The notes under the pieces are model-generated. The model worked only from the letters and a program-made list of their open reading frames with translations, did no database searches and was not told where the DNA came from. From Kiloniellaceae bacterium (GTDB lineage Bacteria > Pseudomonadota > Alphaproteobacteria > Kiloniellales > J153): a DNA stretch of 40,811 nt. The translations under genes were made by a program, and so were the position numbers. This document shows positions 11,175-33,568 of the stretch, piece after piece; within the stretch, counting starts at the first letter, position 1; each line of letters begins with the position of its first letter. The stretch spans positions 1-40,811 of the forward strand of contig JAJFGP010000023.1 in the NCBI GenBank assembly GCA_021776055.1. The letters run 5' to 3'.

Positions 11175-11648
11175 ATGAAGCCCGCCAACCTCACGAGCAC
11201 CCTGCTCACGCGCAAGGGTCAGGCTTCACCAACCCTGGTGGGGCCCTCCCGAACGGCTATGCCGATGCCGGCACTGCCGTTGTCGTCAGCCGCACCGCTT
11301 TTGCGCCTCAAGGATTTATCACCGGCCGAGGTGCGACACGACAACGTCGAGAACAATCGTTTTGCCAGCGCACCGCGTGCTGCCGTCGACCGCCGTGTCC
11401 ACATGTCGCTTCGCGTCGATCCGGGCCGGCATCTGCGTCTACGCCTTGAGGCTTCGCGCACCGGACGGTCCATGCAAAGTCTACTCATTCAGGCGCTTGA
11501 CGAGTTCCTGGAGCGCGATGGGCCCGGCACCAGCGATCCGGAATTCGCAGAAAACCTTCGCAACGACGGCCCCGAGGTCGGCAGTCGGCGCGAACCATCG
11601 CAACCTGTTGGCGTGGAGGCGGGCGGTGGATCCACACGATCCCAGTAG
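11175..11648 (+). CDS. Small ribbon-helix-helix protein, likely ParA partner
   Basis: A 157-residue protein with an unstructured N-terminus and a ribbon-helix-helix core at about residues 75-113. Its strand is RVHMSLRVDP; the helices include RHLRLRLEASRTGRSMQSLL and IQALDEFLE. The C-terminal 40 residues look disordered. RHH proteins bind DNA as dimers and often serve as the DNA- or ATPase-stimulating partner of ParA-like ATPases; that role is inferred from the adjacency. It starts 9 bases after the ParA gene, and its end overlaps the GTG start of the next gene by 23 bases, so the three are probably co-translated. No specific named family is recognised. Confidence 0.72.
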   Translation: MKPANLTSTLLTRKGQASPTLVGPSRTAMPMPALPLSSAAPLLRLKDLSPAEVRHDNVENNRFASAPRAAVDRRVHMSLRVDPGRHLRLRLEASRTGRSMQSLLIQALDEFLERDGPGTSDPEFAENLRNDGPEVGSRREPSQPVGVEAGGGSTRSQ

Positions 11649-12717
11649 CGGCCCCAATAACGGGCCCAGCAGCAACCTGGAGAGCGATCTGGCTGCCAGC
11701 CCGCTAAGTGCCCCGCGTGGGCCGGCACAGACACCGGCTGGATCGCTCATGTCCATCCAGATTCGCCGCCGCACACCGCCCCGGGACAGATTGCCAGTGC
11801 CCCCGGCCCCCAAGGCGGCGCGCCCAGAAACCTCGCCTGTGCCACCAACGCCGGCCGTGGCCGCGCCACCACCCGTTGCCCCCGAACCAGATATCCCGGC
11901 GCCAGAAGTCCCGGCGCCAGAGAAGGCAGCACCGGCAGCTCCCTTCCCTGCCAGCGATCCTGGCCGCCGGATGCAGAGCGTTACGCCCCAACCGGCTGCC
12001 CCTTCGGAACCACCCCCGGCCGAAGCTGCCGCGGCGCCGCCGACTGCTCCGACTGCTCCCGCTGCTCGGGCGCCTCTTACCGCACCGGGAATCGCGCGTT
12101 ACGCCCGCACCGGCGGTGACGACCAGAATGTCGAGAGCAAGCCACAACTGGCCATCCCAGCCACGAAACCAGCAGCTCCGAGACCAGTAGCTCCGAGACC
12201 GGCGGCTCCGAGACCGGCCCCCGCGCAGAGGCCGACCACACCACCCCCGCCAGAGGTGCGACGGGAATCGCCCGCGCCGACAGCCGAGACCAGCCGGCCG
12301 GAGGGCATTGTCTCCTATTGGCTACGCTTGCGCGGAAGTCGCCGGTTTCCATCCAAGGCGGATCTTGATCAGAACCGCATCATTGCCGACTGGCCCAACA
12401 GCATCCTGATGCGCTGCCGTAGCGGCTCCAAGGCCCTTGAGCCCGAGAAGGTCTTTGCCGGCCCAGGCCAGGCATCTTTGGCCGATTCCACGACCCCTGC
12501 CGATACATCGCAGGCGGCCATGGAGTTGTCGCCCATGATGCTGCAATGGCTGCTGACCCTAGCCGGAGACGCCGCTAAGGACCGGCGGCCAATGCAAGAC
12601 ACCGAGGCCTTTCCGTCGCGCAACCAAAGCGTTCGATATGGAGCATTTGCACTACCGTTCAGCGAGGACCAGAGCCAGATAGACCACGTTCTGTGTCACG
12701 TCTACCGCGCCGATTAG
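11626..12717 (+). CDS. Pro-rich protein with C-terminal PAS_5-like domain
   Basis: A protein of about 363 residues in two parts. Residues 1-225 are extremely rich in Pro and Ala, including three APRP(V/A) repeats, and are probably a disordered linker. Residues 226-363 resemble the PAS_5 domain common in alphaproteobacteria: VSYWLRLRGSRRFPSKADLD, then IIADWPNSILMRC, and a terminal ALPFSEDQSQIDHVLCHVYR. The GTG at 11626 was chosen because GGAGG (11615-11619) sits 6 bases before it; an ATG at 11749 would give 322 residues. PAS_5 proteins are poorly understood and may bind a small ligand or mediate protein contacts. Position between the ParA/RHH pair and the Tad-like lipoprotein suggests an adaptor role. 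Confidence 0.75.
   Translation: MDPHDPSSGPNNGPSSNLESDLAASPLSAPRGPAQTPAGSLMSIQIRRRTPPRDRLPVPPAPKAARPETSPVPPTPAVAAPPPVAPEPDIPAPEVPAPEKAAPAAPFPASDPGRRMQSVTPQPAAPSEPPPAEAAAAPPTAPTAPAARAPLTAPGIARYARTGGDDQNVESKPQLAIPATKPAAPRPVAPRPAAPRPAPAQRPTTPPPPEVRRESPAPTAETSRPEGIVSYWLRLRGSRRFPSKADLDQNRIIADWPNSILMRCRSGSKALEPEKVFAGPGQASLADSTTPADTSQAAMELSPMMLQWLLTLAGDAAKDRRPMQDTEAFPSRNQSVRYGAFALPFSEDQSQIDHVLCHVYRAD
12174..12218 (+). repeat. Three tandem 15-base repeats coding APRP(V/A)
   Basis: Three consecutive near-identical 15-base units (AGCTCCGAGACCAGT, AGCTCCGAGACCGGC, GGCTCCGAGACCGGC). They encode part of the Pro-rich linker of the PAS_5-like protein, and copy number could vary between strains. Confidence 0.85.
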
Positions 12718-16711: not shown

Positions 16712-18619
16712 CTAAGAGCTTGGCCGGACTTCGAAAACTCTAAACCCGCCAACATCTTCCGGCAGAGGAACAGGGGTCAAGAACGCTGGCGGCGCCCCGT
16801 CGCTAAGCGCCTGATAGAGCGTGCGGCCGCCGGCATCGGTTTTGTAGAACCAGGACTCGTTTGACCCGAGACAGATGGCAACCAGATCGACCTGCCCCTT
16901 CGTTAGCAACCCTTGCGCCACATCGAAATCTTCCGCCGCCATGATGCCATAGCTCGCGGTAAAGCCGGGCTGCGGACGATGATTTGGAATCGACAGAACG
17001 GCATGACCGGTGCGGTAAAGAATCTCCGGACCAAAATCGATCAAGGCAAGGATCAACCTCGGACTATCCCCCAATCCGGTCGGATCGTTTAGAACAGTCG
17101 ATAAAGATTTGATTGGGCACGTCTCTCTGCCCTTCACTACAGCTCCTGCGTCCTCGTCCGAGGCCCCCGCTATGGCGCCCGGTACAAAAACCCAGGTACA
17201 CATCGCCGCAAACAAGAACGGTCGAATCACGCCCAAGGCTTGCTCCGAGAATCGAGCCGCGAAGCGCGCGGCAATCGTTGCCGCCAAATCGGCATAGGGC
17301 AAAACCAAAACCGTTTCCGCGTATGATGCCCAACGCACCTGATAAAGCGTCAACGGCACATAGGCTAAGGAAGCAATGGCGACCAAAAGCCAAAGCCGGC
17401 GTGCGACACCCTGGCTATGCCACAATCGATAGGCGAGCCACGGCATTGCAGGAATTGCGATGCCAAGCCACAAGATCGCACTCCCCGCGGCCTTGGCCCA
17501 CCGGTCGCCCTGCACGTCGGCCACACCGATAAGTGGCTGAATTTCGGCGATATTAGCGAAATGGATACGCAGATATAGATCTCCACCCGCGCCCATTGGG
17601 TCCGCGAAGGCATGCGGGAATTGCGACCAAAACAAGAGCAGCGATACGGCCATCGCACAGCCAGCCCAAATCGCCCGCCGCATTGGCCCTACACCAAGCC
17701 ACCCGCGTTTTTCAACGACGAACAATACCCAGCACGTCAGGGCGTTCAGTGCGAACAGCGCAAGATGCAGAATGGAAATCTTGTCAATTTCAACGACCAA
17801 CAGGTCGGACGGCCCACGCTCTACCAACAAGGCCAGAGCCAGGCCAGCACACAGGGCAGTCGAATAGAATAGGAGAACGCGCAGCATTCGCCGGTCGCCA
17901 AGCAGCCAACATAAACCAAGGGTAGCAACCACGGTGACCACCGCGACAAGAGACTCGATGCTGACCCAGATCGCCAAGGCCCCGGCTAGACCGGACGCCA
18001 TTGCGTTAAGTTTGCGCTCGGGGTTGGCGAGAACACGAAGGGCGAACCCCAGCGATAGTATGAACAGGAGTATGAGGAGACCATGGTGGTCGGGGCGGCC
18101 AACCATGAACCGCACCAAGTCGCCGGGTTGGGCAACGAAAATGAAGGCGACAAGCGGCAACCATGCGCGCGGAAAAATCGGCGCGGCAGCCCAGACGATC
18201 GCACAAAGCGAGACGACCAGCAGCACCGGGCTAACCAGAGCACCCCACCAGAACAACGCCGCTTGAAAACCCAGAAATGGGGTCGCCACCCCTGCCCCGG
18301 CAAGAAGTAAAAGGTCCATCGGCCGGGTCCAGTGCAGCGTCAAGCCGTTCGGCGGGCCGATCCGTGGAATAACGGCATCGAACCAGGCACCCGACTGCCA
18401 CAGGTGCTCCACCCGGACCAGGCGCATGTAGTCGTCGGTATCGACAAGGCCACCGGCGAGGATCGGGGAAATGCCGTTCAATGCCATGCCGATTTGCACG
18501 AACACCGCGAGTAGGGCGGAAATGGCAATCGCAAGTGCAATGTCGCGGCTACCGGCTTGGAAGGAGAGTCCCTCTCGCGCGGTGCCCCGCACCCAAGTGT
18601 GATCGACGATCTGCGGCAA
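16712..18619 (-). CDS. GT-C type membrane glycosyltransferase, STT3/PglB-like N-terminus
   Basis: A 635-residue protein with about ten or more membrane segments followed by a soluble C-terminal part (about residue 480 on). The first extracytoplasmic loop holds the acidic motif DTDDYMRLVRVEHL (D60, D62, D63) and then IGPPNGLTLHWTRPMDLLLL, a pattern seen in GT-C lipid-linked sugar transferases related to STT3/PglB. Such enzymes sit in the inner membrane and transfer sugars from polyprenyl phosphates to proteins or lipids; the acceptor is unknown. Convergent with the receiver-MipZ gene (5-base gap) and divergent from the PAP2 gene. Context next to Tad pilus genes raises the possibility of surface or pilin glycosylation. 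Confidence 0.72.
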   Translation of the reverse strand: MPQIVDHTWVRGTAREGLSFQAGSRDIALAIAISALLAVFVQIGMALNGISPILAGGLVDTDDYMRLVRVEHLWQSGAWFDAVIPRIGPPNGLTLHWTRPMDLLLLAGAGVATPFLGFQAALFWWGALVSPVLLVVSLCAIVWAAAPIFPRAWLPLVAFIFVAQPGDLVRFMVGRPDHHGLLILLFILSLGFALRVLANPERKLNAMASGLAGALAIWVSIESLVAVVTVVATLGLCWLLGDRRMLRVLLFYSTALCAGLALALLVERGPSDLLVVEIDKISILHLALFALNALTCWVLFVVEKRGWLGVGPMRRAIWAGCAMAVSLLLFWSQFPHAFADPMGAGGDLYLRIHFANIAEIQPLIGVADVQGDRWAKAAGSAILWLGIAIPAMPWLAYRLWHSQGVARRLWLLVAIASLAYVPLTLYQVRWASYAETVLVLPYADLAATIAARFAARFSEQALGVIRPFLFAAMCTWVFVPGAIAGASDEDAGAVVKGRETCPIKSLSTVLNDPTGLGDSPRLILALIDFGPEILYRTGHAVLSIPNHRPQPGFTASYGIMAAEDFDVAQGLLTKGQVDLVAICLGSNESWFYKTDAGGRTLYQALSDGAPPAFLTPVPLPEDVGGFRVFEVRPSS

Positions 18620-20574: not shown

Positions 20575-21081
20575 ATGCCTACGATAACGTTCATTGGCGA
20601 TTTCGTGGTTGTATGCTTTGCGGCGCTGGTCTTTTCGGCGGCGGTAAGCGACATATTGACTTTTCGCATTCCAAACCGCCTACCCTTGGCCGTGGCATTG
20701 CTATACCCCGCCTACGTCCTTGCAGCGCCGCAGCCCGTGGATTGGCTATTCGCGATTAGCCTCGCTAGCGCATTCCTTGCCATCGGATTTGCCCTATTTT
20801 CAGCCAAAATCTGTGGTGCCGGAGATGCTAAGTTGTTCGCGGCAATAGCTCTTTGGAGCGGCCCGGAGCTTATCCTTCCGTTCACATTCATCACGACGCT
20901 GGCCGGCGGCGTGATCGCCATATTCTTGTGGCTACAGAACTATTTTGCACGGGCAGCCACACCGCTTTTGGTCTTTCAAACACCCGCCGACCCGACAATC
21001 GGCAAACAGCAGATGCCCTATGGGGCGGCTATCGCCGTGGCGGCTCTTTACGTAGCATTTACACTACTTCGGATAAGCTAA
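20575..21081 (+). CDS. cpaA: TadV/CpaA prepilin peptidase
   Basis: A 168-residue type IV prepilin peptidase of the short (TadV/CpaA) type, with about five membrane segments and no methylase domain. The two catalytic aspartates are D26 in AVSDILTFRIPN and D84 in CGAGDAKLFAAI. It cleaves the leader of the Flp pilin at the inner membrane. The start ATG at 20575 lies directly after the pilin terminator, so the assembly operon must start there by read-through or from a promoter not evident here. The next gene (cpaB) starts 4 bases after its stop. Confidence 0.94.
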   Translation: MPTITFIGDFVVVCFAALVFSAAVSDILTFRIPNRLPLAVALLYPAYVLAAPQPVDWLFAISLASAFLAIGFALFSAKICGAGDAKLFAAIALWSGPELILPFTFITTLAGGVIAIFLWLQNYFARAATPLLVFQTPADPTIGKQQMPYGAAIAVAALYVAFTLLRIS

Positions 21082-21085
21082 GGCT

Positions 21086-21979
21086 ATGTCAGTAAGGAAT
21101 ATTCTCCTTGTGGTGGCGGCCCTGCTCATCACCGTGGGTACGGGCCTGCTTGCACGCAGTTGGCTGAACGGCCAGCGCGTGGAAACGGCTGCGCCGGCGC
21201 CGGAGCAGACCCGGGTCAGCGCCTATGTTTTGGTGGCCGAGATCGACGTCCCGGCCGGCACGTTCCTTAAGAAGGAGCACATACGCTGGCAGGCATGGCC
21301 GGACGAGATCCTGCCCGAAACCTACATCGTCAGGCAAGATGGCGAAGCCGAAGAGGTTGCGGACCAGGAGGTCTTGGGTGCCGTGGTTCGCCGTGGAATC
21401 AGTGCCGGCGAGCCAGTTGCCCGCGGCCGGATTATCAAGTCAGAGGATCGCGGCTTTTTAGCGGCTGTCCTGAGACCGGGATTTCGCGCCATGGCGGTTC
21501 GCATCGACGCGACCTCAAGCATCGCCGGCCTTGTTTTTCCTGGCGATCGGGTTGACGTCATTATGACCCATGAAATTAAGCGGGGAAAAACCGTCCGACG
21601 CGCCAGTGAGACAGTACTCAGCAACGTTCGGATATTGGCGATCGACCAATCAGTTAACGACCAAGGCGGTGAAGCACGTGTCGGTAAGAACGCGACATTC
21701 GAATTGACGCCGAAGCAGACCGAGATGCTGGCGATCGTCAGCGATTTGGGAAAGCTATCGCTGGCGCTACGCAGCCTCGCTAAGGATGAAGAAGAACTCG
21801 ACCGCCTCGCCAACTCTGATGAACCACTGGCCGAATCCGACCCGGAGCGAGGCAAAACATATACCTGGGATTCAGAGGTTAGCCGTTTGATCTGGCGGCC
21901 ATCGAGCGCCAGCAAGGACATTGTCCAGGTCAATCGCGGCAACGAAAGCAAAGAACAACGCTTCAACAAGAGGCAATGA
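21086..21979 (+). CDS. cpaB: CpaB/RcpC pilus assembly protein
   Basis: A 297-residue Tad assembly protein. It has a single N-terminal membrane anchor (NILLVVAALLITVGTGLLAR) followed by a SAF-like domain (residues 45-110, YVLVAEIDVPAGTFLKKEHI) and the CpaB/RcpC core with AMAVRIDATSSIAGLVFPGD and RVDVIMTHE. It works in the periplasm, probably linking the secretin to the inner membrane machinery. A charged C-terminal tail of about 60 residues is unlikely to be conserved. The stop overlaps the start of cpaC by 4 bases (ATGA), so the two are translationally coupled. Confidence 0.94.
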   Translation: MSVRNILLVVAALLITVGTGLLARSWLNGQRVETAAPAPEQTRVSAYVLVAEIDVPAGTFLKKEHIRWQAWPDEILPETYIVRQDGEAEEVADQEVLGAVVRRGISAGEPVARGRIIKSEDRGFLAAVLRPGFRAMAVRIDATSSIAGLVFPGDRVDVIMTHEIKRGKTVRRASETVLSNVRILAIDQSVNDQGGEARVGKNATFELTPKQTEMLAIVSDLGKLSLALRSLAKDEEELDRLANSDEPLAESDPERGKTYTWDSEVSRLIWRPSSASKDIVQVNRGNESKEQRFNKRQ

Positions 21980-23334
21980 TGTTCGCTCAGCGTTTCAATC
22001 TGATTGCCGGTATCGCGCTCACCTTGGCCGTTCTTTGCCCGGCGCCGGCGCCGGCCCAGACATCCGCGGCACCGCTCGGCGGGCGGCTGACGGTCGAGAT
22101 GAACGAGGGCCGCTTGGTGCGCCTGGCGTCACCGGCCGTATCCGTCTTTATCGCCAATCCGAAGGTCGCCGATGTGAACGTCAAGTCGGCACGCATGGTC
22201 TATGTCTTCGGCATAGTCCCGGGCCAGACCACATTGTTCGCTGTCGACAAAAACGAAAATGTCGTCGCCAACATACAGATTGTCGTCGAACACAATATCG
22301 GGCGGCTGCAAGAAAACATAGACCGTCTGTTGCCAGCCGGTGACGTCCAGGCATCGTCGGTTACCGGCGGTATCGTGCTAAGCGGTAAAGTGGCAAATGC
22401 AACTGATTCCGAAAACGCTCGTCGACTAGCCGCTCGATTTATCGCCCCAAACGAGGACGTGATCAACCGGCTACAGGTCACCGAGCCGAACCAGATTAAC
22501 CTGCGGGTACGGATCGCCGAAGTATCGCGCCAGATCATCAATCGCTTTGGCTTCAACTGGAGCACGCTTTATTCCCAGGCCAATTTCATGATCGGTTTGT
22601 CTACATTCAACCCGACTCTGGAATCGAGCACTCTGGTCACGCCAACATTCAACAATGGCACATTCAACATAAACGCCATTATCGATACGCTTGCCGACGA
22701 CGGGCTTATCACTTTGCTGGCCGAGCCGAACCTGACCGCTTTGTCTGGAGAAACCGCGAGTTTTCTGGCAGGCGGTGAATTTCCAATTCCCGTCGCCCAG
22801 GACAAAGATACGATTACAATCGCCTTTAAGGAATTCGGCGTCAGCCTGGCCTTCACGCCGACACTCATCGGCGAGAGCCGCATTAGCCTCAAGGTCAAAC
22901 CGGAGGTCAGCCAGCTGACTACCACCGGCGCCGTGACCATCGGTAGCGTCCAGGTGCCTGGCCTGTCAACACGGCGCGCCGAGACGACGGTGGAGCTTGC
23001 CTCGGGACAAAGTTTCGCCATCGCCGGTTTGCTCTCGGACAACTCACAGGAGTTGATCAAGGACACCCCTGGGATTGGCGACCTTCCGATTCTCGGTGCC
23101 CTGTTCAAAAGCGAGCGTTTCGAGCGCAACGAGACCGAATTGGTTATTATCGTCACGCCATATCTTGTGAATCCGGTGTCCGACGACAGTCTGGTCTTGC
23201 CCACCGATCCGTATCGCAATGCGCCGACCACACGGTCACCCCAGAGGCCGATTGCCCAGACGCGTACCATCCCGCTTTCCGGCGCCGAGGCTGCTAACAG
23301 CGGCACCGGTGGGACCGGGTATTTGCTGGATTGA
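21976..23334 (+). CDS. cpaC: CpaC/RcpA outer membrane secretin
   Basis: A 452-residue secretin that forms the outer membrane channel for the Tad pilus. A signal peptide ends near ALTLAVLCPAPAPAQ. Residues 35-180 hold the N-terminal BON/N0-like domains (SVFIANPKVADVNVKS; VTGGIVLSGKVANA). The secretin core (about 235-400) includes LITLLAEPNLTALSGETASF, FPIPVAQ, VPGLSTRRAETTVEL and the terminal ELVIIVTPYLVNPV. The C-terminal 50 residues are Pro/Thr-rich. It overlaps cpaB by 4 bases and is followed 10 bases later by cpaD. Confidence 0.95.
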   Translation: MMFAQRFNLIAGIALTLAVLCPAPAPAQTSAAPLGGRLTVEMNEGRLVRLASPAVSVFIANPKVADVNVKSARMVYVFGIVPGQTTLFAVDKNENVVANIQIVVEHNIGRLQENIDRLLPAGDVQASSVTGGIVLSGKVANATDSENARRLAARFIAPNEDVINRLQVTEPNQINLRVRIAEVSRQIINRFGFNWSTLYSQANFMIGLSTFNPTLESSTLVTPTFNNGTFNINAIIDTLADDGLITLLAEPNLTALSGETASFLAGGEFPIPVAQDKDTITIAFKEFGVSLAFTPTLIGESRISLKVKPEVSQLTTTGAVTIGSVQVPGLSTRRAETTVELASGQSFAIAGLLSDNSQELIKDTPGIGDLPILGALFKSERFERNETELVIIVTPYLVNPVSDDSLVLPTDPYRNAPTTRSPQRPIAQTRTIPLSGAEAANSGTGGTGYLLD

Positions 23335-23344
23335 GGAGGGCAGG

Positions 23345-24052
23345 ATGCCGGACGTAAAAGAAACTCTCCGTACCGCCAGATTGGCCGCGTTGCTGCCCAT
23401 GCTGGTGCTTGTTGGCTGTCATATCGAGCAAGGCCAGGACAACCCGATCGAGGTCGTTACCAGCCATACCTTCGATTCCGCAAACTGGCAGCAAGGCGAA
23501 GCGAAGATTGCCACGCAGGTTGAGCCGATTACCCTGGTGCACGTGCTGAACTTTATGCCCGGCGACGCTAGTCTGAGCGACACCGAGCTCGCCAACCTAC
23601 AAGAGTTCTTGCAGACCAGCGGCGGACAAGATGGCGCTCGCATCGAGGTGGACGGCCCTCGCCTCTCGGGTGGATACTTCGACGCGTTGACCAAAGCTCG
23701 AGTCGAGGAAATTCGCACCGAGCTCTCCGGCCTTGGATTGCGCAGCCAGATTCCCGTGAAGCCGGTGGCGCTACTCGCTAAACCGCCGGAGGGGATCGCT
23801 GTAACGGTAACACGGGCGATGGTCATCCCGCCGGATTGCTCCGCGCCACAACCGGAGTTCGCCACGCGCCCGGATTATGCCTGGAGTTGCGCGAACGCCG
23901 CCAACCTCGGCCACATGATCGTTGATCCGGTCGATCTCGTACAAGGCCGGACGCTCAGCCCCGCGGACGGCGAAGCGACCGCCAAGTCCATTGAGGTCTA
24001 TCGCGAGCGCGAAGTTGAGGATCCCACTGCCGAAAAGACGTCAGAGCAATGA
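23345..24052 (+). CDS. cpaD: CpaD-like pilus assembly lipoprotein
   Basis: A 235-residue Tad assembly protein of the CpaD type. The lipobox is LVLVGCH (C25), so it is probably an outer-membrane-associated lipoprotein. CpaD signatures include an OmpA-like/FXXL-type region (NFMPGDASLSDTELANLQEF), and the C-terminal CSAPQPEFATRPDYAWSCAN, then NLGHMIVDPVDLVQGR. The start at ATG 23345 has a strong GAGGAGGGCAGG just upstream; the open frame before it overlaps the secretin gene and is not coding. The stop overlaps the cpaE start (ATGA). Confidence 0.92.
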   Translation: MPDVKETLRTARLAALLPMLVLVGCHIEQGQDNPIEVVTSHTFDSANWQQGEAKIATQVEPITLVHVLNFMPGDASLSDTELANLQEFLQTSGGQDGARIEVDGPRLSGGYFDALTKARVEEIRTELSGLGLRSQIPVKPVALLAKPPEGIAVTVTRAMVIPPDCSAPQPEFATRPDYAWSCANAANLGHMIVDPVDLVQGRTLSPADGEATAKSIEVYREREVEDPTAEKTSEQ

Positions 24053-25284
24053 GTGCAATCGAAAATACATTGGAAGCTGAGCTGCCGGAGGTCGAAACCG
24101 CGGAGTGTGTCGCTTTCGTCAGCGACAACCAGACGCATGGTGTCATCGCCTCTGTCGCCAGCCAGTTCTTCGATTCCCCAATGGTGCGTGATGGCGGCAC
24201 GCAGCAGGCTCTGGAGTACCTGGCGGACAACGCACCGCCAAAGGTCCTGATCGTTGATATCGGCGACGCCTCGGCACCGTTGACCGCTATGCTATCGCTA
24301 ACGGCGGCCTTCTCGGAAGACACACGCCTGATCGGGATCGGCACCATCAACGATATCAACCTGTACCGCGAGATGGTTGGTGCTGGAATTACCGACTACC
24401 TGGTCAAACCGGTGACGGAGAAGGCCCTGGCGGCGGCCCTATGTCGCACAGAGGAACCGGTTAGTGACCCCGCAGGCGAGCAAAATCCAACGAAAAAGGC
24501 GAACAGAATCGCCGTGGTCGGGTCCCGCGGCGGCGTTGGCGCGAGCTCAATTGCCGTTAATTTGGCTTGGGTCTTGAGCCAGGAACGTAAGCTAAGCACC
24601 GCTTTGATCGATCTTGATCTTGAGTTTGGTACTGTGGCCCTCTCATTGGATCTTGAGCCGACCCGAGGGTTACGCGAAGCCTTGGAAAGCCCAGCGCGCA
24701 TCGACAGCCTGTTCATCGAAAGCGCCACCGCCCGGCTATCGGAGAAGCTGGCGATTATGGCCACCGAGGAGACCCTCGCCCAGGAAATTGCCTTCAACCC
24801 GGACGCCATCGACGTACTACTCGAGGCCGTGGGACGCGCCAGCGATCAAATCATTATCGATATGCCACGTTCGGCTTTTGCCGTACGGCAGCGTGTATTC
24901 GAAGCCGCGTCCAAGATTGTTTTGGTCACGGAACTTAGCCTGCCGGGCCTGCGTGACTCCATGCGTTTGCTGACCGGTATCGAGGAAGTCTCGGTCGGCA
25001 AGCCGGTTACAGTCGTCGCTAATCGCACCGGTGGTGCACAGCAAGCCATGCAACCCAGGGACTTCCAAAAAGCCCTCGGCCACAAGATTGATTTTGTGAT
25101 TCCCGAGGACCGCAAATCATTCATCGAGGCGGCCAACAACGGCAAACCCCTTGTCAGCAGCAACCAACGCAGCGCCGCAACCAAAGCACTGCGTAAGGTC
25201 GCCGAAAAGCTTGTCGATGGCCAATCTGGCGACGAACAGGGTGCCAAGAAGAAAAAGTCGTGGCGATTCGGAAAAAAGGGATAG
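24049..25284 (+). CDS. cpaE: CpaE/TadZ pilus localisation ATPase-like protein
   Basis: A 411-residue protein with an atypical receiver-like domain (residues 18-130, VLIVDIGDAS with D70, LVKPVTEKAL) and a ParA/MinD-type domain (152-400). Its Walker A is GSRGGVGASS (158-167), in which the usual catalytic lysine of GKT/GKS is Ala165, as in many TadZ/CpaE proteins. TadZ/CpaE positions the Tad machine, often at a cell pole. The receiver + ParA-like layout is parallel to the receiver-MipZ fusion 8 kb upstream but the two are not close paralogues in their receiver domains. The C-terminus is basic (KKKKSWRFGKKG). Overlaps cpaD by 4 bases; 6 bases before cpaF. Confidence 0.95.
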   Translation: MSAIENTLEAELPEVETAECVAFVSDNQTHGVIASVASQFFDSPMVRDGGTQQALEYLADNAPPKVLIVDIGDASAPLTAMLSLTAAFSEDTRLIGIGTINDINLYREMVGAGITDYLVKPVTEKALAAALCRTEEPVSDPAGEQNPTKKANRIAVVGSRGGVGASSIAVNLAWVLSQERKLSTALIDLDLEFGTVALSLDLEPTRGLREALESPARIDSLFIESATARLSEKLAIMATEETLAQEIAFNPDAIDVLLEAVGRASDQIIIDMPRSAFAVRQRVFEAASKIVLVTELSLPGLRDSMRLLTGIEEVSVGKPVTVVANRTGGAQQAMQPRDFQKALGHKIDFVIPEDRKSFIEAANNGKPLVSSNQRSAATKALRKVAEKLVDGQSGDEQGAKKKKSWRFGKKG

Positions 25285-25290
25285 TGCCGC

Positions 25291-26967
25291 ATGGACAGTG
25301 CAGCCGCCAGCACTGGGCCGGCCGCGAACAAGGACCGCGGAAGTAAGAACGCAAATCTGCGCGACAGAGGAGCGGTCCTAGCCCAATATCTTGAACAACT
25401 AAAGCCCAAGGTTCTCGCAGCCTTCGAGAACGATAACGTCGCGGTGCTGCCACGGCCCGAACTTGCCGTGCGTATCGGCCACATCGTTACCACCGAGACC
25501 GACGAGGACTCGAACAACTTAAATTTGCTCGACCGCCGTAATCTGGTGGCCGACCTGATCCGCTGGTTGCTTCACAGCAGTCCCATGGCACCGCCCAAGA
25601 CGGCGCCAGCCGTGCCTCTTGCAACCCCAGCGGCGGCCGAGTCCGAATCCGCAGCCGAAGACATGCTGTCACCAAACCGCGACCCGAAGAAACCCGCGGA
25701 GGCGCAGGTTTCTAAAACTGTGGAAACGACGAAAGCGCGCATCGAGCCGCTGGTAATGGACCGGCTGGACGTCTCTGCCGCGTCTCGATTGCCACGTGCG
25801 GATCTTGCAATCCAACTCCGCGATATCGTCAATGAGGTTTTAGCGGAACAGAAAATTCGACTGAATTCTTCTGAGCAGACGTCGCTTGTCGAGCTACTGC
25901 TCGACGATATGCTTGGCCTTGGACCGCTGGAGCCCTTGCTGGCTGACGAAGCCCTCACCGACATAATGATCAATGGTCCGGCGCAAGTTTATGTCGAACG
26001 CCGCGGTAAGCTTGAGTTAAGTAACGTCACCTTCCGCGATAACGAGCATGTGCTCAACATTGCGCGCCGCATCGTTTCGGTGATCGGCCGGCGTGTCGAC
26101 GAGACCGTGCCGTTGGTCGATGCTCGTTTGCAAGACGGCAGTCGTGTTAACATCATCATTCCGCCCCTGGCGATCGACGGTCCTTCGATCTCGATCCGTA
26201 AATTCGCCAAGAAGTCGATCACGCTCGACATAATGAAGCAGCAGAACAACATCTCCGAGCAGATGGCGACGGTGCTGAAGATCGCATCGCGCAGCCAGTT
26301 GAATATTCTTATTTCCGGGGGTACCGGCTCCGGTAAGACGACGCTTCTGAACGCTCTGTCGCAAATGATCGACGAGCGCGAACGCATCGTTACCATTGAG
26401 GATGCCGCCGAGCTTCAATTGCAGCAGCCGCATGTGGTGCGTTTGGAGACACGACCGCCCAATCTGGAGGGCACCGGCGAAATCACCATGCGCGATCTGG
26501 TGAAAAACTCGCTACGTATGCGCCCCGATCGCATCATCCTCGGCGAGGTACGTGGCTCCGAGGCCGTCGATATGTTGCAGGCCATGAACACCGGCCATGA
26601 TGGCTCGCTGGGCACGGTCCATGCCAACCGCCCGCGTGAAGCGCTTACACGTCTGGAGAACATGGTCGGCATGGCTGGTATCAACCTGCCGGCCAAGGCA
26701 GTCCGAACGCAAATCGCGGCGGCCCTGGATATGATCGTCCAGGTTTCGCGTATGCGCGACGGTATGCGCCGCGTGACCCATATCACTGAAGTCATCGGCA
26801 TGGAAGGTGACATCATCACCACGCAGGACCTATTCACATACGAATTTGAGAGCGAAGGTTTGGACGGCTTGCTGAAGGGGCACTTCAAGTCGACCGGACT
26901 GCGCCCGCACTTCGCGGCAAAGGCTGCTTATTTCGGCCTCGATCGCCGGTTGCTGGAGTGCATGTGA
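25291..26967 (+). CDS. cpaF: CpaF/TadA secretion ATPase with duplicated N-terminal domain
   Basis: A 558-residue hexameric GspE/VirB11-superfamily ATPase that powers Tad pilus assembly at the inner membrane. Walker A is [16 protein letters not shown]; other conserved parts are [40 protein letters not shown] and [16 protein letters not shown]. The N-terminus is longer than in typical CpaF (about 450-500 residues): residues 37-94 and 151-208 align without gaps as two copies of one helical domain (for example [15 protein letters not shown] and [15 protein letters not shown]), joined by a Pro/Ala linker. Usually only one copy is seen. The stop overlaps the tadB start. Confidence 0.95.
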
Positions 26968-27977
26968 TGGACTTTGCAGCCATCTTCGGCATCAACGGAG
27001 CCGACCCCTCGCTCTTGCTCTACATGATTCTGCCTCTAGGCATGATCATGCTGTTGTTCGGTCTTTTCGGCGGCAGCGGCGCCCGGCGTGTTTTTGCGCG
27101 CAGGGTTGCTCAGATCAAGGTCAATCACGACCCAGCCCCTACAGTTGACCAGGTGATCACCGCCCGCCGAAAAACCAACAACAGTGCCATCCCCGGTCTG
27201 GATGAATTACTAAAGCGGCTCGTGCCGCGCCAGGACGTGCTGCGTCTTCGTCTCGCCCGCGCGGGTATGAATGTCGCCGTTGCCGTCTACGTGCTTGCGG
27301 GTATCTTGGTAGCGGCGATGGCGTTCATCTTGGCCCGCACGATAGGTGATATGCCGATTGTCGTTTCTATACTTTCAGCCATCGGCGCTGGTCTTGGTTT
27401 GCCACATGCGTTTGTTGGTTTTCGAATCAAGCGGCGGCAAACGAAATTCATCGACTATTTCCCCGAAGCCATCGATCTAATGGTCCGAGGCATCAAAGCC
27501 GGATTGCCAATCGGCGAATCTATTCGAACTGCGGCAGAAGAAGTGCCGAATCCCGTTGGCGAGGAACTCATGCGCGTTACCGACGGCGTGCGTATTGGTC
27601 GAAAAATGGATGAAGTTTTGTGGGAAACCTCAAATCGTTTGGATTTGCAGGAGTTCAAGTTCTTTACGATTGCCTTGTCGATCCAAAACGAGACCGGTGG
27701 CAATCTAGCGGAAACCTTGATGAATCTATCAGATGTTCTGCGAGGCCGACGCCAATTAAAACGCAAAGTGAAAGCTCTGTCGTCGGAGGCAAAAGCCAGC
27801 GCCTATATCATCGGTTCTTTGCCTTTTATCATGACCGGTATGATTTATCTTGTTAATCCCCATTACATAACGGGATTGTTTATTGACCCACGCGGCCAAG
27901 TTCTCATTGGATTCGGTCTTGCGATGATCGCCAGTGGCGTGGGAGTCATGTATCGCATGGTGAAATTCGAGATATGA
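26967..27977 (+). CDS. tadB: TadB inner-membrane platform protein
   Basis: A 336-residue GspF-family membrane protein. An N-terminal membrane segment (LLLYMILPLGMIMLLFGLFG) is followed by a soluble part. Further hydrophobic pairs lie around residues 100-145, and a T2SSF domain has YFPEAIDLMVRGIKAGLPIG and IALSIQNETGGNLAETLMNL. A final pair of membrane helices ends the protein. TadB and TadC form the platform on which the ATPase CpaF acts. The ATG at 26967 overlaps the cpaF stop (TGATG) and has GGAG 9 bases upstream; a GTG at 26958 is also in frame. Its end overlaps tadC by 4 bases (ATGA). Confidence 0.94.
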   Translation: MDFAAIFGINGADPSLLLYMILPLGMIMLLFGLFGGSGARRVFARRVAQIKVNHDPAPTVDQVITARRKTNNSAIPGLDELLKRLVPRQDVLRLRLARAGMNVAVAVYVLAGILVAAMAFILARTIGDMPIVVSILSAIGAGLGLPHAFVGFRIKRRQTKFIDYFPEAIDLMVRGIKAGLPIGESIRTAAEEVPNPVGEELMRVTDGVRIGRKMDEVLWETSNRLDLQEFKFFTIALSIQNETGGNLAETLMNLSDVLRGRRQLKRKVKALSSEAKASAYIIGSLPFIMTGMIYLVNPHYITGLFIDPRGQVLIGFGLAMIASGVGVMYRMVKFEI

Positions 27978-28954
27978 ATTTCGACGCTTACCTTCCAGCC
28001 GGAATAACGCCAGAGGACCTGATCGTCCTCATGTCTGCGTTGTCTGCCGGCAGTGTTGCGTTTGCGGTTTGGCTTGCATTGTTACATCGCGATCCGGCTA
28101 CTAAGCGGGCAAAGCTTATCGCTCACCAGCGCAGCGAAATGCGCGCCGGCGTCGTTGGCCCGCGCCGCCGGCAGGAGCGTCTACCGACAATCGGTATGAT
28201 GCGCAAAGTCGTGGACCGTTTGAATTTGCTACGGTCGGGTCAGGCGAACAAGATTTCGCTGAAGCTAATGCGTGCCGGGTGGCGGTCGAAGGATGCGATC
28301 ATCCGGTATTTGTTCAGTAGACTTGCCTTGCCATTCGCCTTCGGAGGAACCGTCGCATTCCTGCTCCATGGCTTGGACCTCTATGACCTCGATACAACGC
28401 AAAAGCTTATCGCTACGCTGGCTAGCGTTATCGTTGGTGCCTATGCGCCTGACATATACATCCGAAACGCAGCAAAAAAGCGCCGCGAGAAGATCCGCAA
28501 GTCCCTGCCCGATGCGCTTGATCTCATGGTGATCTGCGCCGAAGCGGGCTTGAGCCTCGATGCGACTCTGATGCGGGTATCGCAGGAAATGGAGCAGGCA
28601 GCTCCCGAGTTGGCCGATGAATTTAGCCTCACGGGCCTGGAGTTGGGTTTCCTCTCGGACCGCCGAAAAGCAATGCAAAACCTTGCGTTGCGGGTCGATC
28701 TGACGTCCATGCGCGGCGTCGCCAATACATTGATGCAGGCCGAACGCTACGGCACACCACTAGCCCAATCGCTACGCGTAATGGCCGGTGAGTCCAGACA
28801 GGAGCGCGTAATGAAGGCGGAAGAAAAGGCTGCCCGTCTGCCGGCCGTTATGACCATCCCCATGGTCGTCTTTATTTTGCCGCCGCTATTTATCGTCCTC
28901 CTGGGTAAGGCAATCCTGAACACCATAGATGCGTTCAAAGATTTGGCATTCTAG
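27974..28954 (+). CDS. tadC: TadC inner-membrane platform protein
   Basis: A 326-residue GspF-family partner of TadB. It has an N-terminal membrane helix (LIVLMSALSAGSVAFAVWLA), a central hydrophobic pair (residues 112-157), and a T2SSF domain with LPDALDLMVICAEAGLSLD, QEMEQAAPELADEFSL and QAERYGTPLAQSLRVMAGES. The final helix is AVMTIPMVVFILPPLFIVLL. It ends the Tad run; an inverted repeat TTGACC/GGTCAA (28962-28967 and 28985-28990) lies just after it but lacks a T-run. TadD-like protein is encoded far upstream; TadE and TadG pseudopilins are not in the window. Confidence 0.94.
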   Translation: MNFDAYLPAGITPEDLIVLMSALSAGSVAFAVWLALLHRDPATKRAKLIAHQRSEMRAGVVGPRRRQERLPTIGMMRKVVDRLNLLRSGQANKISLKLMRAGWRSKDAIIRYLFSRLALPFAFGGTVAFLLHGLDLYDLDTTQKLIATLASVIVGAYAPDIYIRNAAKKRREKIRKSLPDALDLMVICAEAGLSLDATLMRVSQEMEQAAPELADEFSLTGLELGFLSDRRKAMQNLALRVDLTSMRGVANTLMQAERYGTPLAQSLRVMAGESRQERVMKAEEKAARLPAVMTIPMVVFILPPLFIVLLGKAILNTIDAFKDLAF

Positions 28955-29558: not shown

Positions 29559-31832
29559 TCAGCGTGTCGCGGCGATCTCGGTGCGGAGAAGCGTTGCATG
29601 CATCCAGCCGAGCGGCTTATCGGTTCCCGGGGACGCGATCTGCACCCAGTCACCGCGCCGCTGCACTTCCTGGACTGCCGTATTCCGCGACAAGCTGCTC
29701 AGGGCAGTTGACTGGGGCGACGCCTTGGCACGGACAACCGCAGAGTTCGCACGGACGTAAAGAAGGTTCTGACTTGCCGAATTCCGGGCCGAGGCAACCC
29801 GGTCTAGCACCGCTTTCGGGTCGGTGCCGGTACGGACCAGTTGGACACCTCCGGCCACCGCGAGCGCCACACAGAACACCACAGCGGCCGCCCGCCATCG
29901 GTTGGGGCGCGGCCCGGCGATCCGCTTTTTTACCTGCGCCGTTGTTTGCCGGTGCCGCTCTTCGGTCTGCTGCCAAACCTGTATTTTGGCCTGCTTACGC
30001 CGTGCCTTGATTTCCTTCTTGGCGACTTCGATCTCGTTCTTGGCATCCGCGGTCGCGCGGCGCGCACTGACCTCCCTCTCCCACTCGGGATCGGGCGCGG
30101 GCTCGTCCTTCGGTGTTTCAGCGATCTTGTTTACCGCAGATGGTTCTCGCGCTGGCTCAGGTGCCGGCTTTGCGTGTTCCTTGGCTGCGGCTTGCTTGAC
30201 GATTTTGGCTTCCGCCTGCCAGGCCTCCTGGGCCGCTTCTAACCGCGCTTTTTCATCCGCTTTCCACCTCTTCTCGGCCTTTTTCAAGCTCCCCCGGGCT
30301 TCATTGTCAAAGGCAGCACGGATTTCACTAACACGCCGCTCCACGTCGATGCGCCACTGCGCTTCCACCTCGTTCAGCCGCTGCTCCGCCTCGGCCTCCC
30401 AGACCGCGCGCGCGGCAGCCAGGGCGTCCTCGATGCCCGCTGTGGATTGAGATGCCGCGGCAGTATCTTTGCAGTTACGCTCTTTCTCCCAGGCCGCGCG
30501 GGCCGCCGATAACCGCTTTTTCTCTTCCGCGTGCCAGCGCGCCTTGGTTTCATTCTGCTGCTGCTCCGCCTCGGCCTCCCAAACGGTCCGTGCGGTGGCT
30601 AGGGCGTCCTCGATGTTCTCTGTGGATTGAGATTGAGGTGCCGCGGCCGCGTCTTTGTGATCACGCTCCCCCTCCCAAGCCGTGCGTGCCGCCGCTATCT
30701 GCTTTTCCTCTTCCGCGCACCAACGCGCCTGGGCCTCGGTTAGCTTCTGTTCCAGTTGGGCCTTCCAGCCAGTCTCGGCCGTCGCGATTCTTTGTTCGAC
30801 CAGCGGTTCCCAAGCTGCCTTGGCTGCCGCCAGCCGGTCCGCGGCTTGCTTATCCCAGGCTGTTTTCTCGACCGCTAATTGGCGCTCTTCTTGCTCTCGC
30901 CAAGCGGCCTTGTCAGTGGCCAGGCGCTTTTGGACGGTCGCCTGCCAATCTGCCTTCAGATCGCTTACGCGCGCCTCGGCCTCAGCCTCCCAGGTTGCCT
31001 TGAGAGCGGACTGCTGCTGCGCCGCCTCTTCCCGCCACGCGGCTTTGGCCGTGGCGGTGCCTTCGTTTTCGGCGGCTTGCCACTGTGCCTTGGCACGGCT
31101 TAAGCGCTTTGCCGCCTCAGATTCCCATTTTTTTTGGGCCGTCGTAAGCTGGCGGGTTGTTTCGTTTTCCCAAGCGCTGTGCGCGGTCGCCAGCGACTGT
31201 TCCGCTTTATGATTCCATTTTTTCTGGGCCGTCGTAAGTTGACGGGCTGTTTCGCTTTCCCAGGCGCTGTGCGCGGCCGCGAGCGACTGTTCCGCTTCTT
31301 CATCCCACTTGGCCTTCGCCTCGGCCAGGCGCTGGGCGACCGCCGCCTCCCATTCCGCTGTTGCCGCCGCCAACTGCTCCTGCTCAATCCGCTGGGCATC
31401 GGCGGGGCTAGCCCCGGTCTTGGGGGCTTGCACGGCCATATCGAAGAGGGCCACCGTATTAGCCCCCTCGTAACCGTCGTCATCGAAGCGCAGAACCCTG
31501 ACGGCTAGAACGTGTTCACCGACGCTGCCCTCGGGGGGGTAGAATTTCAGGCCACCCAAATCGTCTGCCGAGAGCGACCAGGTATTGTCCCAGTTGTTGG
31601 TTCCAACCGAAAGCTTGGTGCCCACGGGCATACCCTCGACAATGACGGATAGCTGCCCCGAGATGCTACGCCTGGAGAGTTCCGCCTCGATGTCGAGGGC
31701 GACTGATTTACGTTTGCGACCTTTGGCTGTCACGCCTGGCGGCTCCGTCTTTGGGTATGACACGTCTTTGCCCGGGCCAAATGTTGGCCCTCCCCGCGGC
31801 CTGGCAGGCCGTGGGTTCCGATACTGGATCAT
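29559..31832 (-). CDS. Large Trp-repeat coiled-coil membrane protein with C-terminal SH3-like domain
   Basis: A 757-residue protein of unknown role, in five parts. Residues 1-45 are basic. Residues 45-135 look like a single beta-sandwich of the VCBS/cadherin type (LSVIVEGMPVGTKLSVG; NTWSLSADDLGGLKFYPPEG). Residues 161-552 are a long, highly charged helix made of 24 units with Trp (once Phe) every 15 residues, such as WESETARQLTTAQKKW. Residues 552-645 are a charged linker, 648-666 one membrane helix (AAAVVFCVALAVAGGVQLV), and 689-757 an SH3-like domain (YVRANSAVVRAKASPQS; GDWVQIAS; LGWMHATLL). Positive residues before the helix predict a cytoplasmic N-terminus and a periplasmic SH3-like domain, which may bind peptidoglycan. 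No known name fits. A cytoplasmic rod tethered to the envelope is plausible. Confidence 0.82.
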   Translation of the reverse strand: MIQYRNPRPARPRGGPTFGPGKDVSYPKTEPPGVTAKGRKRKSVALDIEAELSRRSISGQLSVIVEGMPVGTKLSVGTNNWDNTWSLSADDLGGLKFYPPEGSVGEHVLAVRVLRFDDDGYEGANTVALFDMAVQAPKTGASPADAQRIEQEQLAAATAEWEAAVAQRLAEAKAKWDEEAEQSLAAAHSAWESETARQLTTAQKKWNHKAEQSLATAHSAWENETTRQLTTAQKKWESEAAKRLSRAKAQWQAAENEGTATAKAAWREEAAQQQSALKATWEAEAEARVSDLKADWQATVQKRLATDKAAWREQEERQLAVEKTAWDKQAADRLAAAKAAWEPLVEQRIATAETGWKAQLEQKLTEAQARWCAEEEKQIAAARTAWEGERDHKDAAAAPQSQSTENIEDALATARTVWEAEAEQQQNETKARWHAEEKKRLSAARAAWEKERNCKDTAAASQSTAGIEDALAAARAVWEAEAEQRLNEVEAQWRIDVERRVSEIRAAFDNEARGSLKKAEKRWKADEKARLEAAQEAWQAEAKIVKQAAAKEHAKPAPEPAREPSAVNKIAETPKDEPAPDPEWEREVSARRATADAKNEIEVAKKEIKARRKQAKIQVWQQTEERHRQTTAQVKKRIAGPRPNRWRAAAVVFCVALAVAGGVQLVRTGTDPKAVLDRVASARNSASQNLLYVRANSAVVRAKASPQSTALSSLSRNTAVQEVQRRGDWVQIASPGTDKPLGWMHATLLRTEIAATR
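30361..30726 (-). repeat. Tandem duplication of about 180-186 bases
   Basis: Two consecutive copies begin at 30361 and 30541. CTGCTCCGCCTCGGCCTCCC occurs at 30381 and 30561 (offset 180); further on the offset becomes 186, a two-codon difference. Each copy encodes a W-repeat block with a non-helical insert containing STxxIEDALA. Confidence 0.75.
31122..31301 (-). repeat. Two tandem 90-base near-identical units
   Basis: Bases 31122-31211 and 31212-31301 are near-identical with an exact 90-base offset (for example GGGCCGTCGTAAG occurs at the same place in each). Each encodes two 15-residue units, and the pair marks a recent duplication. Confidence 0.8.
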
Positions 31833-31923: not shown

Positions 31924-32262
31924 CTAGACGGGGTCAGAATCGCCCTGGGAGGGCTCGTGTAGGGCCTTCTCCATCTTCTTGGCCACAACCTGCTCGCTGT
32001 CCTGGAACTCGATCCCCAGCTCCTTGTCCTGGCGCCAGGTAATCTCACCTGATAGCTCGCCAAATCGAGGGCAGCGCAGAACCACCGACTTCTTGCATGC
32101 CGCGGGGTTTTCGACACGCACTAAGGCGCCGCCCGACGAAACATTCACGATCACGCAGTCGATATCCTGGCTCTCGCAGACCAGGCTGCCCGACCACAAT
32201 ACGGCGGTGCGCTCCAACTTCCGGCGATCCGCCCCGCCCTTATCGTCCGGCTTGTCCACCAT
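31924..32262 (-). CDS. PilZ-domain protein (probable c-di-GMP receptor)
   Basis: A small PilZ protein, 112 residues from ATG 32262. The PilZ signatures are the arginine pair near the start (DRRKLERTAVLW) and the following IVNVSSGGALVRV, which matches the (D/N)xSxxG motif that binds c-di-GMP. There is no partner domain. A start at 32364 would add 34 residues and overlap the CoA-transferase gene by 17 bases; the extra part has no family look. PilZ proteins often control motility, pili or polysaccharide; its place near the tad and coiled-coil genes is suggestive but not proof. Just upstream, a short AGGCGA/TCGCCT hairpin (32316-32329) may end the catabolic operon transcript. Confidence 0.82.
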   Translation of the reverse strand: MVDKPDDKGGADRRKLERTAVLWSGSLVCESQDIDCVIVNVSSGGALVRVENPAACKKSVVLRCPRFGELSGEITWRQDKELGIEFQDSEQVVAKKMEKALHEPSQGDSDPV

Positions 32263-32347
32263 CGAGCCGCAAACCCCCAAATCCCAATCTCTTGCGCGAT
32301 TCGTGGCGGAGACTTTAGGCGATTTCGCCTGATTGCACACCTCATTC

Positions 32348-33568
32348 TCAGTCAGGCGGATCACAGCACGCTATCGCACCGGCGGCCAGCATATGGTCGA
32401 TGGCGGCCGCCGCGAAGCCATGTTCCTCCAGAACCTCACGGGTATGCTGGCCAAGCACCGGCGCCCCGGTCGCGACTTTGCCGGGAGTCTCCGAAAACTT
32501 GACCGGCAGGCCAATGGCATTTACCGGGCCGAGGCCGATGTGTTCGGGCGCCACCACCATATCGCGAGCGACCGTTTGCGGGTCGGCGTGCATTTGCGCC
32601 ACGTTGAGCACCGGACCGGCCGGCACGCCGGCAGCCTCCAGCCGGCCCAGCCAATCCACGGTGGTGTGCGTCCCAAAAATTTCATTCAGCTTTGTCGCTA
32701 ACGCCGGTAGATGGGCGATACGCCCGGCGTTGTCGGCGAAACGCGGGTCATCGGCCAATTCCGGCGCCTCGATCACATCGAGCAGGCGCAACCAGTTGGT
32801 CTGATTTGCGGCGCCGACAGTGAGCCAGCCGTCGGCGGTGCGAAAAGCTTGATAGGGCGCATTGAGCGGATGCGCCGAGCCCATGGGTCCCGGCGAATGG
32901 CCACTGGCGAAGGCGATGGCCGATTGCCAGTAGGTGTGCACGATGCCGGCCTCGAAGAGCGATGTATCGACGCGTTGGCCACGGCCGGTTCGCTGGCGCT
33001 CCATAGTGGCGGCGAGGATGCCCATGGCCGCCAGAATCCCGGCGGTGATATCCGTTACCGGCGCCCCAACCTTGACCGGTGGCCGCCCCTCGCCCTCGCC
33101 GGTGATGCTCATCAACCCGCTCATGCCTTGGGCAATGAGGTCGAAACCACCACGGTCGGCGTAAGGACCAGTGCGACCAAAGCCGGAAATCTCGCAATAG
33201 ATGAGGCCCGGATTCGCCTCCCGCAGGCTCTCGTAGCCGAGGCCCAGGCGCTCCATGGTACCGCGCCGATAATTCTCGATCACCACGTCGGCATCGCTCA
33301 GCAAGCGGCGCACCACCTCTCGTCCGGCCTCGCTCTTCAGGTCGACGGCGACGCCTCGCTTGTTGCGGTTCATCATCATGAAGGCAGCGGATTCACCACC
33401 TATGTCAGGCGGCAGGAAGCGGCGCGAGTCGTCGCCGCCGGTGATCTTCTCCACCTTGATCACATCGGCGCCCATGTCCGCCAACATCAGGCCACACACC
33501 GGACCGGCCATGATATGCGCCAACTCGATTACCTTCAGCCCGGCAAGCGGGCCTTGCCGGTGGGTCAT
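32348..33568 (-). CDS. Class III CoA-transferase (CaiB/BaiF/Frc family)
   Basis: A 406-residue family III CoA-transferase. Family features include PLAGLKVIELAHIMAGPVCG at the start, the nucleotide-binding DMGADVIKVE, NRNKRGVAVDLKSEAGR and the catalytic aspartate D173 in GAPVTDITAG. These enzymes move CoA between carboxylic acids through an aspartyl-CoA mixed anhydride; the substrate cannot be told from sequence. It lies last in a minus-strand run with a crotonase (3-base gap) and a TRAP transporter, which suggests activation of an imported organic acid to its CoA ester. Formyl-CoA:oxalate, carnitine, citramalate and hydroxyacid CoA-transferases belong to the same family. Confidence 0.93.
   Translation of the reverse strand: MTHRQGPLAGLKVIELAHIMAGPVCGLMLADMGADVIKVEKITGGDDSRRFLPPDIGGESAAFMMMNRNKRGVAVDLKSEAGREVVRRLLSDADVVIENYRRGTMERLGLGYESLREANPGLIYCEISGFGRTGPYADRGGFDLIAQGMSGLMSITGEGEGRPPVKVGAPVTDITAGILAAMGILAATMERQRTGRGQRVDTSLFEAGIVHTYWQSAIAFASGHSPGPMGSAHPLNAPYQAFRTADGWLTVGAANQTNWLRLLDVIEAPELADDPRFADNAGRIAHLPALATKLNEIFGTHTTVDWLGRLEAAGVPAGPVLNVAQMHADPQTVARDMVVAPEHIGLGPVNAIGLPVKFSETPGKVATGAPVLGQHTREVLEEHGFAAAAIDHMLAAGAIACCDPPD

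Follow-up and report, generated by a model that had tools for sequence, protein, structure and literature searches.

The Locus and Its Genes

The stretch of DNA analysed here, referred to as the window, comprises the 40,811 nucleotides of contig JAJFGP010000023.1 from a Kiloniellaceae bacterium (assembly GCA_021776055.1). Its minus strand carries, as the initial annotation had reported, an open reading frame of 757 residues, and the features recognized within it and around it are collected in Table 1. In the sister species (genome G001), an in-frame TAG lies just 5′ of the equivalent of the GTG at 31733 and the sequence GGAG stands ahead of that GTG, so this codon, rather than the ATG at 31832, is probably the start.

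Table 1. Features of the rod gene and of other loci in the window (residues numbered from the first ATG)
Feature	Residues	Positions	Strand	Remarks
Whole open reading frame		29559–31832	−	757 residues counted from the first ATG (ATG at 31832)
Probable true start, GTG	34	31731–31733	−	Protein then about 724 residues
Ig-like N-terminal domain, RTX-adhesin type	44–137	31422–31703	−	Alignment, AF2, Foldseek, Azospirillum match
Rod segment 1	146–386	30675–31397	−	16 Trp in exact 15-residue register; single predicted helix to 380
Tandem duplication within rod segment 1		31120–31297	−	90 bp (30 residues, two units); 89% matches
Linker 1	387–406	30615–30674	−	Phase slip of 2 residues
Rod segment 2	407–459	30456–30614	−	Trp 418, 433, 448
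Linker 2	460–463	30444–30455	−	Predicted break; phase kept (30)
Rod segment 3	464–551	30180–30443	−	Trp 478, 493, Phe508, Trp 523, 538
Pro-rich disordered linker	552–581	30090–30179	−	AF2 pLDDT < 50 over 551–581
Basic juxtamembrane helix	582–645	29898–30089	−	Conserved in L003
Membrane segment	about 646–666	29835–29897	−	Kyte-Doolittle maximum, preceding positive charge
Bacterial SH3 domain, SH3_3	698–748	29589–29741	−	Pfam; periplasmic by expectation
Tad/Flp pilus locus		20575–28954	+	Prepilin peptidase, RcpC/CpaB, secretin, CpaE/TadZ-like ATPase, TadA-like ATPase, two TadB/C-like membrane proteins
PilZ-domain gene		31924–32364	−	Directly upstream of the rod gene, co-directional
Open reading frame		11362–12717	+	451 residues; no Pfam match at E ≤ 1e-5
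Open reading frame		16712–18619	−	635 residues; no Pfam match at E ≤ 1e-5

The neighbours of the rod gene in the window are Tad/Flp pilus genes, mscL, the PilZ gene, and a CoA-transferase gene. MscL and CoA-transferase are common to the window and the sister species, in which the interval separating the rod and CoA-transferase genes contains no PilZ gene. Genome G005, like the window, has a PilZ gene directly upstream of the rod gene (L036 7186–7485, 51% identity). No other fetched locus has PilZ beside the rod gene, and none has the Tad ATPases there, several of these contigs ending close by. The neighbours instead vary by group: g3 has cytochrome c and TPR genes, f6 an HTH gene, and f2 a response-regulator gene. 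In the genera g3 and g4, the rod gene is followed on the same strand by a TPR-like gene encoding 461 residues (L038 5706–7091 and L049 2503–3888; 77–92% identity). The fetched loci contain no conserved neighbour that would indicate a partner, and guilt by association is weak here because the neighbours are mostly not common across loci.

A Repeat of 15 Residues Marked by Tryptophan

The most conspicuous property of the encoded protein is the regular spacing of its Trp residues, which from Trp161 and Trp176 through to Trp386 occupy 16 positions in exact register over 226 residues, and continue thereafter in the two later rod segments. The total of 24 units, made up of 23 Trp and Phe508, agrees with the count given in the initial annotation. 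Trp pairs exactly 15 residues apart number 19, whereas 20,000 same-composition shuffles of the region reached 6 at most, and self-identity is 0.26 at a lag of 15 and 0.31 at a lag of 30, the remaining lags up to 39 giving 0.07–0.14; lag identity and the shuffle test thus both demonstrate a sequence period of 15 residues, as in a pentadecad. The phase had been described as kept even across a 30-residue double unit, which is so between Trp448 and Trp478; between Trp386 and Trp418 the distance is 32 residues. Both junctions fall in linkers predicted by AF2 to be non-helical (381–406 and 460–463) and similar slips occur in relatives of the protein (spacings of 29, 27, 34, and 32), so phase across the linkers is apparently unconstrained.

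The average unit has Leu at −7, Ala at −4, Trp at 0, and Arg at +7, and is rich in Glu from +3 to +5. Across 238 units of 11 proteins the core order Leu-x2-Ala-x3-Trp-x7 is followed, with Leu in 79% and Ala in 77%. The full-length AF2 monomer model, built from two sequences and having a mean pLDDT of 61, gives continuous helices over residues 146–380, 407–459, and 464–551, mostly at pLDDT 65–84, in keeping with the helical rod that had been proposed.

A period of 15 residues over four turns, or 3.75 residues per turn, is indeed distinct from the heptad, as was noted at the outset. Since this value exceeds 3.63 residues per turn, right-handed supercoiling is needed, and 15/4 repeats have been found to demand right-handed supercoiling comparable in strength to the left-handed supercoiling of the heptad (PMC4786415; PMC9858780). 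Of the two shapes suggested for the rod, straight or right-handed, the second is accordingly the one that fits; without supercoiling, by geometric estimate, the line of Trp residues would wind around the helix by about 48 degrees per unit. Published pentadecads have their core at positions a, d, h, and l (PMC9858780). Taking Leu as a, the present unit has Ala at d, Trp at h, and a mixture at l, so that three of the four places agree. Position l is hydrophobic in 61% of the units of the window protein as against 31% across the family, where Glu and Ala predominate at this place, and once Trp is masked the 3.75-residue harmonic does not dominate the spectrum; for both reasons the core must be regarded as thin. 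The hydrophobic spectrum has a peak at 3.75, which was not counted as proof of a pentadecad, since any exact repeat of 15 residues necessarily puts spectral power into harmonics of 15. The case for a pentadecad therefore depends on the combination of Leu, Ala, and Trp; on this pattern, the rod is probably a 15/4 coiled coil in which these three residues occupy a, d, and h, respectively.

The initial annotation knew of no named family for the repeat; the class of 15-residue repeats does, however, already bear the name pentadecad. The protein family, judged from its sequences, is real, conserved, and unnamed. Neither the rod nor the head falls within a curated family: the whole protein had no match among NCBIfam, PADLOC, or PHROGs models, and among Pfam models it matched SH3_3 only. 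A sequence search of the PDB returned 0 matches at E ≤ 1 for both the whole protein and the N-terminal domain profile, a Foldseek search with the full-length model found nothing better than E 0.03, and a literature search of partial coverage found no paper on Trp at every 15th residue in coiled coils.

The Terminal Domains

Residues 648–666 have a mean Kyte-Doolittle value of 2.35 and the 20 residues before them a net charge of +7, which supports the membrane anchor that had been proposed. The N-terminus contains no hydrophobic stretch, the Kyte-Doolittle maximum over the first 40 residues being −0.68. Beyond the anchor, the SH3-like end, periplasmic by prediction, is also upheld: SH3_3 is matched at E 7.3e-6 with 26.5 bits, just below the 27-bit Pfam cut-off, and all six SH3-bearing relatives tested score above that cut-off. 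The SH3 domain is present in the window genus, L042, L050, L047, and L084–L086, and absent from members of g3, g4, and g5, whose proteins end soon after the membrane segment, while the membrane segment is absent from families f2 and f6. Because each is missing in some relatives, neither is essential to the family.

The most widely conserved portion of the protein is its N-terminal domain, which had not been remarked upon in the initial annotation. Its alignment has 21 invariant columns in 16 members, and AF2 predicts a beta sandwich (pLDDT 79, pTM 0.69). Foldseek ranks an RTX-like domain, 9cse, first (prob 1.00, E 0.011, 26% identity), and VIA-align superposes 91 residues on it with Z 6.2 and an rmsd of 3.5; as this Z value is tied with those of other Ig-type folds, the Ig fold class is firm and the identification of a particular relative rests on sequence. 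The domain is 41.8% identical over 77 residues to a giant Azospirillum protein annotated as Ig-like, and is in consequence a sandwich related in sequence to the modules of RTX and giant adhesins. The same domain, often repeated, is found in related genomes in open frames of 1340–4103 residues (G013:C19, G013:C58, G018:C6, and G009:C31), which are probably giant adhesins.

Distribution and Evolution of the Family

At the protein level, 25 of 58 related genomes and 27 of 61 in the order gave matches; some of these cover no more than the N-terminal domain, within giant proteins. The Trp-bearing rod is common to eleven relatives. Among relatives, the length of the rod ranges about threefold, from about 240 to 750 residues. 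Those in f2 and f6 retain the N-terminal domain; they have almost no Trp, yet lag 15 is their strongest, with an identity of 0.38–0.44. Six relatives (L039, L040, L041, L044, L045, and L046) show the 15-residue period nearly without Trp, lack a membrane segment, and are rich in Glu, Lys, and Arg in the manner of single alpha helices. Within the genome itself no paralogue was found by search, the second match having E 0.9, and plasmid records gave no full-length match. Two family genes are interrupted by a stop codon (L051 2769–5304 and L047 1–3704, in G029 and G059), through either assembly error or decay.

A search for other proteins with Trp at this spacing had been proposed in the initial annotation. 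In 385 genomes of the class, runs of six TGG codons spaced 45 bases apart were sought by a frame-blind scan, matches being judged by translation only where the locus was fetched. Besides the window, two lineages have open frames with the Leu/Ala/Trp unit, G242 and G363; most other matches were closed or simple-repeat frames without this helical pattern and were rejected. The G242 protein (L084, 727 residues), from a distant lineage of the class, has the Ig-like head, rod, membrane segment, and SH3 domain. Those of G363 (L085, 463 residues, and L086, 1176 residues) have the rod, membrane segment, and SH3 domain behind a different N-terminus; they are paralogues about 20 kb apart on one contig (2801–4192 and 7425–10955, respectively). 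In searches of 25 further genomes around each of these lineages, the full protein was confined to G242 itself in the one case and to the genus of G363 in the other, so the rod is sporadic outside the order. In a phylum sample of 150 genomes, of which 112 lie outside the class, no genuine rod of this kind was found outside the class among the fetched loci, all of which were closed or simple-repeat frames.

Between the window species and its sister, the repeat region has dN 0.209 and dS 1.27, and the ratio of 0.164 is the lowest among four segments; the repeats are thus under purifying selection, with a dN/dS of 0.16 that is approximate because repeat shuffling lowers the certainty of alignment within the rod. 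In the aligned rods, Trp is kept at 14 of 15 positions, Leu at 14 of 14, Arg at 19 of 21, and Phe at its one position, Phe508 being likewise Phe in the sister species, and Thr, Gln, and Lys turn over more. The retention of Trp and Leu implies that the residues that define the unit are those under constraint. The length of the rod differs by 137 residues between the two species: the sister has one linker only, with 62 residues fewer there, and is also without 75 residues (five units) near the rod start. The two linkers of the window protein resemble each other and look like copies of one. The tandem duplication in rod segment 1 shows the rod to be capable of growth by two-unit steps, and unit duplication would seem to alter its length freely.

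A Putative Scaffold or Tether at the Inner Membrane

We judge the chances to be about even that the gene product is a scaffold or tether of the inner membrane, with its head and right-handed pentadecad rod in the cytoplasm and its SH3 domain in the periplasm. We infer its topology, oligomerization, handedness, and role from the features described above, and its localization and partners wholly so. The positive charges N-terminal to the membrane segment and the lack of an N-terminal hydrophobic stretch would place the head and rod in the cytoplasm. The rods of two or more chains would wind together in a right-handed supercoil with Leu (a), Ala (d), and Trp (h) facing the axis, and could hold the Ig-like head up to about 50–60 nm from the membrane, or at most about 57 nm with all helices collinear. 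In the periplasm, the SH3 domain may attach the anchor to cell-wall material. Such an assembly would position or cluster partners bound to the heads, as coiled-coil scaffolds of the PodJ type do. Against this reading count the thin core, the low mean pLDDT of a monomer model built from two sequences, the loss of the SH3 domain or the membrane segment in some relatives, and the lack of a conserved neighbour.

The main rival to the pentadecad coiled coil is a single stiff helix, in which the rod would be a stable alpha helix on its own, or only a weak dimer, serving as a spacer stiffened by charge pairs, and Trp would form no core. Large hydrophobic residues are indeed sparse, at about 2 per 15, and in the Trp-less relatives L044 and L040, with their abundant Glu, Lys, and Arg, opposite charges at i,i+3 and i,i+4 occur at roughly 1.3 to 2.2 times expectation. 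In the window protein, Lys/Arg is followed by Glu/Asp at i+4 in 23 instances where 11 are expected; its other three counts, however, are at or slightly above expectation (16 versus 11; 10 and 10 versus 11), and its best-kept residues are Trp and Leu, which a charge-stabilized single helix would not need. A right-handed coiled coil is favored because a 15-residue core needs a right-handed supercoil and the Trp stripe would otherwise spiral, and we consider the single helix unlikely.

The remaining alternatives concern function and appear considerably less probable. The initial annotation had proposed a cytoplasmic ruler or tether, of which the tether is still a candidate. A molecular ruler, whose reach from the inner membrane would be set by the number of units, would suit their uniformity, their exact register over 226 residues, and the domains at both ends, but is hard to reconcile with a rod that varies so widely among relatives and even between sister species, that is broken by linkers, and that carries a recent duplication; it is therefore given little credence. 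An accessory function, either for the Tad pilus encoded nearby or for the PilZ (c-di-GMP) protein next to it, is suggested by the window and, in the case of PilZ, by G005, but the sister species lacks PilZ at this place, the other fetched loci lack PilZ and Tad ATPases, and neighbours differ between groups, so that this explanation is no more persuasive than the ruler; a Tad-pilus role was set aside, its context not being conserved. Least probable of all is a surface or exported protein akin to the giant RTX adhesins, which the match of the N-terminal domain to RTX-type and giant Ig-like proteins would favor; against it stand an N-terminus unlike a signal peptide, a C-terminal membrane segment with positive charges ahead of it, and the presence of a single Ig domain only.

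Returning to the scaffold or tether, the broader proposition that this is an undescribed family, with dozens of 15-residue units forming a Trp-cored right-handed pentadecad, an adhesin-derived Ig-like head inside the cell, and a 15-residue period that survives the shift from a Trp/Leu/Ala core to a charge-stabilized helix, is put forward tentatively, with somewhat less than even confidence. If true, a long pentadecad marked by Trp would have a built-in spectroscopic label and would show how large aromatics pack in right-handed coiled coils. The family itself provides a natural series that keeps the 15-residue period with and without Trp.

Comparison With Known Systems

Long Ala- and charge-rich helices are familiar from charge-stabilized single alpha helices and from the Ala/Lys/Glu helices of the TolA type, TolA having its membrane segment at the N-terminus. 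The present family resembles them in tying a long helix of this composition to the inner membrane, most closely in its Trp-less relatives, whereas the window protein differs in its strict Trp/Leu/Ala register and in a membrane segment near the C-terminus. Among pentadecads, which are uncommon as long uniform structures, the stalks of trimeric autotransporters such as YadA have a 15-residue assignment. The VASP tetramerization domain is a pentadecad right-handed coiled coil (Kuhnel et al., 2004, PNAS, as cited in PMC4721544). The rod shares with both the 15-residue period and a core at a, d, h, and partly l, but is far longer and more uniform, with Trp at h in nearly every unit and a polar l; it is cytoplasmic by prediction, matches no solved chain in sequence, and is known from sequence and a monomer model.

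Polar scaffolds of the PodJ type, found in Alphaproteobacteria, localize to the pole and recruit PleC. In overall design, the window protein resembles PodJ, which consists of coiled coils, a disordered region, a membrane segment, and a periplasmic wall-binding domain (PMC8980812). It has, by prediction, the same long cytoplasmic coiled coil as PodJ, disordered segment, single membrane segment, and periplasmic domain that may bind the wall, and differs in its Ig-like head, its 15-residue units, and an SH3_3 domain in place of the TPR and peptidoglycan-binding domains. As these periplasmic domains are absent in Pfam searches, the protein is not classed as PodJ, to which no sequence relation was detected. 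The Ig modules of RTX adhesins (9cse, from Aeromonas, and that of Azospirillum) are like the head in sequence and predicted fold; the window protein, however, bears one copy on a coiled-coil rod and no sign of secretion. Should it be a scaffold or tether, it would be one more bacterial example of such proteins, and one in which an adhesin-type Ig module has apparently been reused in the cytoplasm.
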